From: Lentzea guizhouensis
GTDB lineage: Bacteria; Actinomycetota; Actinomycetes; Mycobacteriales; Pseudonocardiaceae
Length of the DNA stretch: 64,000 bases
Assembly: GCF_001701025.1 (NCBI RefSeq)
Contig: NZ_CP016793.1
Coordinates: 4,526,001 to 4,590,000 of the forward strand
Direction: 5' to 3'
Position 1 is the first letter of the stretch, and each line of letters begins with the position of its first letter. The notes under the pieces are model-generated. The model worked only from the letters and a program-made list of their open reading frames with translations. It had not been told where the DNA came from and made no database searches. The translations under genes were made by a program, and so were the position numbers. Of the stretch, positions 24,069 through 44,510 are shown piece by piece.

Positions 24069-24227
24069 CGAAGAGGAACAAAAAACAGGACCCGCATCGC
24101 GCGAAGCAGTTATCGCGCCGGTCCTCGGTAGTGGTCGCCTGGCAATGACAACCAGGGGACTTCGATCGAAGACCGGCCTCGTCGAAAAGCGTGCTGCGGT
24201 GTCCAAAAGACGAGGAGAAACAAGTAT

Positions 24228-40408: not shown

Positions 40409-43613
<3,205 letters not shown>

Positions 43614-43650
43614 TCCGCTGACCGGGTCGTTCGTGACCCCACTGTGATCT

Positions 43651-43704
43651 GCGTCCCTCTCGTCCGCTAAGGTCTGATCCCAAGACCTTGGACGAGGGGG
43701 ACGC
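43651..43704 (+). promoter_or_regulatory. long stem-loop covering the ribosome site of the atpB-like gene
   Basis: GCGTCCC-T-CTCGTCC (43651-43665) pairs with GGACGAG-G-GGGACGC (43690-43704), including one U-G pair, for 15 continuous base pairs; after a 3-base bulge (GCT) AAGGTCT (43669-43675) pairs with AGACCTT (43683-43689) around the loop GATCCCA. The 3' strand contains the only ribosome-binding site (GAGGGGGA, 43694-43701) and ends 2 bases before the ATG at 43707. As RNA this would block translation. No U-tract follows, so a plain terminator of rnj is unlikely; a DNA operator is possible. Confidence 0.65.
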
Positions 43705-43706
43705 CC

Positions 43707-44510
43707 ATGGCCGACAGTCCTGTGTTCAACCCACCCGGCAAAGCCGACATCTACCTGCCGCCGATCTTCACCTGGCGGGACCCGTTCGGACTGCCGTACA
43801 CCCTCGAGATCACCAAGCCGATGGTCCTGCTGGTGCTCTCGGTCATGATCATCATGGTGTTCTTCCTGGCCACCACGAAGAACCTCAAGCTCGTGCCGTC
43901 GCGCTGGCAGTTCGCCGCCGAGTCCGTCTACGACTTCGGGCGCAACAACATCGCCCGGGAGCAGATCGGCGCGAAGGAGTTCGCGCCGTACGTGCCGCTG
44001 ATCGTCAGCATCTTCTGCTTCGTGCTGGTGAACAACCTCTACGGGCTGGTGCCGCTGGTCCAGTTCCCGACCATGACCCACTTCGGGTTCCCGGTGGCGG
44101 TGGCGTTGCTCATCGTCTTCCCGCTCTACCACTTCGTGGGCATCAGGAAGTTCGGGCTGCGCGGCTACCTGCGCAACCAGTTCGTCATCCCGGGCGTGCC
44201 GAAGCCGGTGCTGTGGGGCCTGCTGATCCCGACCGAGGTCATCCTCAAGTTCTTCTTCGACCCGGTGAACCTCGCGATCCGGGTGTTCGCGGCGATGTTC
44301 GCGGGCCACCTGCTGCTGCTCGTGTTCACGCTCGGCGGCGAGTTCCTGTTGCTGCAGAGCAACATCTGGCTCAAGCCGGTGTCGGTGCTCGGGTTCGGGA
44401 TCGCCATCGCGATCTTCTTCCTGGAGGCGTTGATCCAGGTGCTGCAGGCCTACATCTTCGCGACGCTGTCAGCGCACTACATCGGCCGCGCGCTCGCCGA
44501 GCACCACTGA
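43707..44510 (+). CDS. solitary F0F1 ATP-synthase subunit-a-like protein
   Basis: 267 residues, 5-6 membrane helices. The C-terminal half is clearly subunit a: FVIPGVPKPVLWGLLIPTEV, LAIRVFAAMFAGHLLLLVF (the essential Arg, E. coli aR210) and LEALIQVLQAYIFATLSAHYIG (the Q252 position). The Asn four residues after the Arg (N214) is Ala here. No other atp gene is nearby: rnj precedes and a convergent methyltransferase follows. So it is either a second, divergent copy or a membrane protein derived from subunit a. Its ribosome site is inside a strong hairpin. Confidence 0.8.
   Translation: MADSPVFNPPGKADIYLPPIFTWRDPFGLPYTLEITKPMVLLVLSVMIIMVFFLATTKNLKLVPSRWQFAAESVYDFGRNNIAREQIGAKEFAPYVPLIVSIFCFVLVNNLYGLVPLVQFPTMTHFGFPVAVALLIVFPLYHFVGIRKFGLRGYLRNQFVIPGVPKPVLWGLLIPTEVILKFFFDPVNLAIRVFAAMFAGHLLLLVFTLGGEFLLLQSNIWLKPVSVLGFGIAIAIFFLEALIQVLQAYIFATLSAHYIGRALAEHH

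Follow-up and report, generated by a model that had tools for sequence, protein, structure and literature searches.

We lean toward the reading that the hairpin directly before atpB2, a second gene for ATP synthase subunit a in Lentzea guizhouensis, is a read-through insulator built into the promoter of that gene. On this reading, which comes from sequence comparisons and computed folds, atpB2 would have its own promoter, made up of TGAT, 19 nt, and TAAGGT, with the 5′ arm of the hairpin lying between the −35 and −10 elements. The native transcript would start in the loop and carry a leader of ~25 nt, in which the Shine-Dalgarno sequence has no partner arm. Polymerase running on from the upstream gene (here, rnj) would copy both arms, and the read-through RNA would fold back and bury the Shine-Dalgarno sequence in a stem of ~22 pairs; the read-through message would thus not be translated into subunit a. 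The cell would presumably benefit from such a block; in E. coli, a surplus of free subunit a does harm.

The hairpin before atpB2

The window (the whole stretch of DNA that was analyzed, 64,000 nt of contig NZ_CP016793.1) contains the following genes and hairpin arms, with positions counted from its first base.

42000..43613, forward strand: rnj (RNase J; Pfam RNase_J_b_CASP, RNase_J_C, and others), the co-directional upstream gene and proposed source of read-through
43651-43665, forward strand: 5′ arm GCGTCCCTCTCGTCC, in the promoter spacer and predicted to be missing from the native transcript
43690-43704, forward strand: 3′ arm GGACGAGGGGGACGC, the leader with the Shine-Dalgarno sequence GAGGGGG (43694-43700)
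43707..44510, forward strand: atpB2, the second, solitary gene for ATP synthase subunit a (PF00119)

The product of atpB2 is AtpB, since it matches PF00119 with an E value of 9e-49 and 166.7 bits against a curated cut-off of 33.9, which bears out the original prediction of a solitary atpB-like gene. Its LAIRVF motif aligns with the yeast chain in a helix of AtpB known for the role of its essential arginine. The gene shares 66% identity with the genome's other atpB, which lies 122 bases before the sole c-subunit match; a search of the genome for a second c-subunit partner for atpB2 returned only that single match. Both atpB copies were present in 24/24 Lentzea genomes searched; that is, a solitary second subunit-a gene is kept genus-wide, and the window's genome has one c-subunit match to go with it. 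A literature search for Lentzea together with atpB found nothing relevant. In Lentzea xinjiangensis (L005, L116), atpB2 is frameshifted near its start, reflecting either gene decay or a sequencing error, and the 5′ arm of this genome has the sole outer-helix mismatch among the 20 arm-bearing Lentzea.

The gap between the end of rnj and the atpB2 ATG is 93 nt long, and the stem geometry in it is as originally described. An outer helix (43651-43665 with 43690-43704) of 15 continuous pairs, one of them U-G, can be read directly from the sequence. It is followed by a 3-base bulge (43666-43668), an inner helix of 7 pairs (AAGGTCT/AGACCTT, 43669-43675 with 43683-43689), and a 7-base loop (43676-43682). 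The stem ends two bases before the ATG at 43707 and has the Shine-Dalgarno sequence in its 3′ strand, also as first described. The computed fold of 117 nt reaches −54 kcal/mol, compared with −39.0 (standard deviation, 3.7) for shuffled sequences (z = −4.0), and 0/200 shuffles were as good. Among 503 gene starts with a Shine-Dalgarno sequence, drawn from the window and sixty 20-kb stretches of the same genome, the atpB2 start ranked first for excess complementarity between its Shine-Dalgarno region and the sequence upstream (z = −5.2).

The hairpin was also compared with recognized classes of element. An Rfam search gave only sub-threshold matches over it and no family at the gathering score, and a known RNA family was therefore rejected; the sole gathering-score match in the window is an Actino-pnp RNA (RF01688) at 24117-24177. 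A repeat and regulon search found no second copy in the genome, so a repeat or regulon element was likewise rejected. Nor does the hairpin have the form of an intrinsic terminator: the terminator scan returned 0 sites, and the stem is followed by CC and the ATG rather than by a T-run.

Candidate promoter elements inside the hairpin

The sequence around the 5′ arm contains candidate promoter elements and, from their spacing, a predicted start.

43645..43648, forward strand: −35-like TGAT, 19 nt before the −10-like element, in a surrounding element that is 0.986 identical in the 20 arm-bearing Lentzea
43668..43673, forward strand: −10-like TAAGGT, within the hairpin, with TAnnnT in 24/24 Lentzea
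43682..43683, forward strand: predicted transcription start at the end of the loop, placed by spacing and a purine

The TAAGGT motif pointed out in the original prediction is present, one base downstream of where it had been placed (43667-43672). TAnnnT occurs inside the hairpin region in all 24 Lentzea leaders, 20 of which bear the 5′ arm, and TAAGGT itself in 22/24. A search by script from −50 to −20, in which the last TAnnnT was kept, was positive at 37/37 atpB2 loci; in 36/37 of these related loci, the motif begins 35 to 40 nt before the ATG. At that distance, the background frequency of TAnnnT was 24/1533 (1.6%) among sites with a Shine-Dalgarno sequence and ATG in ~1.26 Mb, many of these sites not being genes. 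A promoter scan with an E. coli-type consensus found none at atpB2. The combination of TGAT, 19 nt, and TAAGGT fits an actinobacterial promoter; for S. griseus, TGAC and ANNNT are given as promoter elements and 12, then 18 and 19, as the commonest spacers (PMC8914203). With the TAnnnT enclosed by the hairpin, transcription of the native message should begin in the loop, leaving out the 5′ arm. A start inside the hairpin, which the original prediction had counted against itself, is thus indicated by inference from the conserved −10-like element. An upstream ATG (ACCATGGACGAGGGGG) occurs in many Lentzea leaders ~5 nt downstream of the predicted start; it shares the atpB2 reading frame in some of them but not in others. 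The window has TTG at this place (43688-43707).

In any RNA with both arms, the stem does hide the ribosome site, as originally described, whereas the native RNA is predicted to be without the 5′ arm. In 20/20 arm-bearing Lentzea, the Shine-Dalgarno sequence was computed to be more open in the native than in the read-through RNA (medians, 0.67 versus 0.00), with native openness of only 0.28 in the window's own leader and 0.02 in L034. The longer RNA was mostly closed in eight armless divergent loci too (openness, 0.02 to 0.35), so the fold calculation alone is weak and does not single out the arm.

The 5′ arm and the upstream neighbor

Loci with different upstream neighbors provide a natural contrast. 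We compared 37 solitary atpB loci (24 Lentzea, 3 Umezawaea, and 10 Saccharothrix), having excluded L083 (operon-type leader), a broken copy in G179, and additional atpB copies from other genera, namely L024 (unlike leader), G019, and G026. An arm was called where the duplex was ≤ −26 kcal/mol, with p < 0.1 against 500 shuffles and a read-through RNA openness of ≤ 0.25. With these thresholds, which were set after viewing the data, the arm was found in 23/37 loci (Lentzea, 20/24; Umezawaea, 3/3; Saccharothrix, 0/10). Upstream genes were called by codon usage, and genes may be missed. At all 23 arm-bearing loci, a co-directional gene ends 58 to 170 nt before the ATG, and in 18/20 Lentzea this gene is rnj. 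The arm was present in 23/29 loci with a co-directional upstream gene versus 0/8 with a divergent one (L048, L049, L050, L009, L010, L077, L078, and L082). A read-through fold-back insulator would be expected to have its arm only where co-directional transcription enters, and by these gene calls that is where the arm occurs. With L005 left out, the co-directional/divergent counts were 22/0 with the arm and 6/8 without it (Fisher's exact test, 1e-4), and in Lentzea alone they were 19/0 and 1/3 (0.002). On the tree, 2 to 3 of the 4 independent pairs agree and none opposes, which is not significant because the loci are related and independent pairs are too few. Six co-directional loci are without the arm. 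The gaps of L008 and L075 each contain a strong hairpin of another kind (−44 and −49 kcal/mol), the neighbor of L076 is 279 nt away, and the arm of L081 is partial; nothing comparable accounts for its absence in L079 and L080.

Individual relatives vary the neighborhood further. An opposite-strand open reading frame separates rnj from atpB2 in L. aerocolonigenes NRRL B-16140 and L. flava (L048 and L049); these loci lack the arm, and rnj has its own hairpin directly 3′. In L. californiensis and L. pudingi (L006 and L039), the intervening gene is co-directional, and the atpB2 arm is present. This interposed gene starts right after a Shine-Dalgarno hairpin of its own, with 3′ arm GAGGGGGCGAC and a TAnnnT just upstream; the fold of this region beats shuffles in L245 (0/40 as low) but not in L244 (11/40, over 110 nt). 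The gene (L244:3050-3190 and L245:3050-3190, in the rnj orientation) is an unrelated one of unknown family. In the three Umezawaea loci, the upstream gene is TetR-like by eye, and the arm ends 12 nt before the −10 element versus 2 nt in Lentzea, with an extra U-A pair in 2/3 species (by eye). This spacing suggests, without proving it, that the Umezawaea arm arose separately. Since the arm persists behind upstream genes other than rnj in 2/20 arm-bearing Lentzea (L006 and L039) and in 3/3 Umezawaea, a link to rnj in particular was rejected, and the proposal that its position after rnj invites processing by RNase J is left unsupported.

The chief rival explanation, which may hold simultaneously with the insulator, is that the hairpin serves mainly as the 3′-end hairpin of the upstream gene, either as a U-poor terminator or as a barrier shielding rnj mRNA at its 3′ end; the short gap would then account for the overlap of the hairpin with the ribosome site of atpB2. 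We regard this as rather unlikely. The armless L008, L048, and L049 have another strong hairpin directly after rnj, and in 9/15 genomes where rnj has another neighbor, the best hairpin in the 110 nt after it beats shuffles (at most 2/40 as low), although the remaining 6/15 flanks are no better than shuffles. In S. griseus, 441/2,115 RNA 3′ ends are listed as "structured non-motif," that is, structured without a terminator motif (PMC8914203). However, no T-run follows the atpB2 stem, the terminator scan was empty, and the hairpin is retained behind other genes (L006, L039, and Umezawaea). Moreover, a plain terminator need not have a Shine-Dalgarno sequence as one arm or span a promoter.

Conservation within Lentzea bears on the insulator reading and on the other alternatives. 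The 3′ arm core GGACGAGGGGG is found in 24/24 genomes, and the 5′ arm core in 20/24, being missing from L008, L048, L049, and L050. The 3′ arm is thus kept with or without the 5′ arm, which indicates that its conservation reflects its own role as leader and Shine-Dalgarno sequence. Identity of the 5′ arm core across the 20 arm-bearing leaders is 0.965, close to that of the −35-like element and the −10 element (0.983); the 8 nt after the −10 element (0.688) and the flank further up (0.575) are less conserved, and third codon positions of atpB2 are 0.819 identical (L005 left out). Variation in the outer helix (20 leaders, 17 distinct) is one-sided, with three U-G cells, one mismatch, and no double change. 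The compensatory changes that had been proposed as a check on the stem are therefore absent from the outer helix of these leaders, and covariation neither proves nor excludes the helix. The inner helix has one double change in one cell, and 26/500 shuffles reach each measure.

Strong conservation of both arms across the −10 element in 20/24 Lentzea would also be expected of a DNA-level operator, in which the inverted repeat is the binding site of a regulator. We consider this quite improbable. The genome has no second copy, the arm depends on the strand of the neighbor, which is unexpected for an operator, and the arm-to-arm spacing differs in Umezawaea; 3/4 single outer-helix changes keep a U-G pair and break the DNA symmetry, although these are too few to weigh much.

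The stem covers the Shine-Dalgarno sequence, and the original prediction accordingly proposed a translational switch in which a ligand, temperature, or protein (or, as we add, a small RNA) opens it. Such regulation now appears very unlikely: the −10-like element falls within the hairpin, conservation of the loop is low (0.688), and Rfam gave sub-threshold matches only. The 5′ arm is also missing in 4/24 Lentzea that keep the gene, the −10 element, and the 3′ arm, and loss of pairing with the gene retained is an outcome that the original prediction had itself named as refuting it. Chance and shared ancestry, whereby a GC-rich promoter spacer happens to match the leader, gain something from the relatedness of the loci and the small number of independent contrasts, but this origin is most improbable given the folding z of −4.0, an arm more conserved than its flanks, and its different placement in Umezawaea.

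Known systems and a possible wider class

The proposed insulator has a counterpart in the transposase genes of IS10, IS50, and IS200, where transcripts entering from an external promoter include an arm that base-pairs to the ribosome site and those from the element's own promoter do not. Fold-back protection of these mRNAs was reportedly described by Davis et al. in 1985 and Beuzon et al. in 1999. By analogy, atpB2 read-through RNA would have an arm over the ribosome site and native RNA would be without it. Unlike those systems, however, atpB2 is a chromosomal ATP synthase subunit gene without an IS, its neighbor is a host gene, and its arm lies in the spacer between −35 and −10. Because the element is unique in the genome and the gene encodes AtpB, we describe it as working like IS fold-back protection rather than class it as such, and membership of a transposable element was rejected.

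Other known systems share part of the layout. The 5′ terminators of IS elements ("mobile attenuators") block expression when the element sits in a transcribed region (PMC2965389); they act by termination, whereas the atpB2 hairpin has no T-run. Like the U-poor structured 3′ ends of actinobacteria, such as those of S. griseus, the atpB2 hairpin is GC rich and lies in the gap behind a gene, but its 3′ arm is the Shine-Dalgarno sequence of the next gene and its stem contains a −10-like element. Riboswitches and RNA thermometers likewise have the Shine-Dalgarno sequence in the 3′ arm of a stem; in atpB2, however, the native transcript is predicted to lack the 5′ arm, and no Rfam match reached the gathering score. 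A literature search, beyond whose reach most subscription journals lay, turned up no recognized read-through insulator of this form.

We also sampled 973 starts with a Shine-Dalgarno sequence from the window and 120 stretches, leaving out atpB2 and using simple gene and start calls that include some errors. The score was the complementarity of the Shine-Dalgarno region to −80 to −30, with hits at z < −2 against mononucleotide shuffles. Hits made up 22/180 starts lying 50 to 200 nt behind a co-directional gene versus 13/285 divergent starts (p = 0.003); they were fewer at <50 nt behind a co-directional gene (7/372) and numbered 8/115 at >200 nt and 0/21 at short divergent starts. At z < −3, the counts were 9 (50 to 200 nt), 0 (divergent), 2 (<50 nt), 3 (>200 nt), and 0 (short divergent). 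The first half of the sample gave 11/94 versus 8/154 divergent (p = 0.08). With class and cut-off fixed from it, the second half alone gave 11/86 versus 5/131 divergent (p = 0.017) and versus 3/178 at <50 nt co-directional (p = 0.0004). Rank tests against divergent starts were weak (0.053 for both halves and 0.39 for the second half), the shift being in the tail. When the scored position was shifted 42 nt upstream as a control, the counts were 11/180, 25/285 (divergent), 11/372 (<50 nt), and 8/115 (>200 nt), indicating that hairpins as such are not commoner behind co-directional genes and that what differs is pairing to the Shine-Dalgarno sequence. A nearby TAnnnT was found in 4/14 hits, atpB2 included; since most hits lack one, the layout with a promoter inside the hairpin is unsupported for the class as a whole. 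One start, L299:3144 (+), lies 95 nt behind a co-directional gene and has TCCCCCTTCC...GGAAGGGGGA over its Shine-Dalgarno sequence, much like atpB2.

These counts allow a broader suggestion, which we make tentatively and consider doubtful: that tandem genes of Lentzea and its relatives are insulated at translation, with an arm complementary to the Shine-Dalgarno sequence evolving at or outside the edge of the native transcript wherever a gene that has its own promoter closely follows a co-directional one, so that only message from that promoter could be translated, and that atpB2 is the extreme of a genome-wide class that replaces U-tract terminators in a GC-rich genome. If the insulator reading of atpB2 is true, a stem that covers a ribosome site need not be a sensor in a GC-rich genome; it can instead keep message derived from the neighbor from being translated, and such stems would have to be read together with the promoter and the strand of the neighbor. 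Tandem genes would have a simple means of remaining independent where few U-tract terminators exist, and a device familiar from transposons would have been carried over to an ordinary chromosomal gene.
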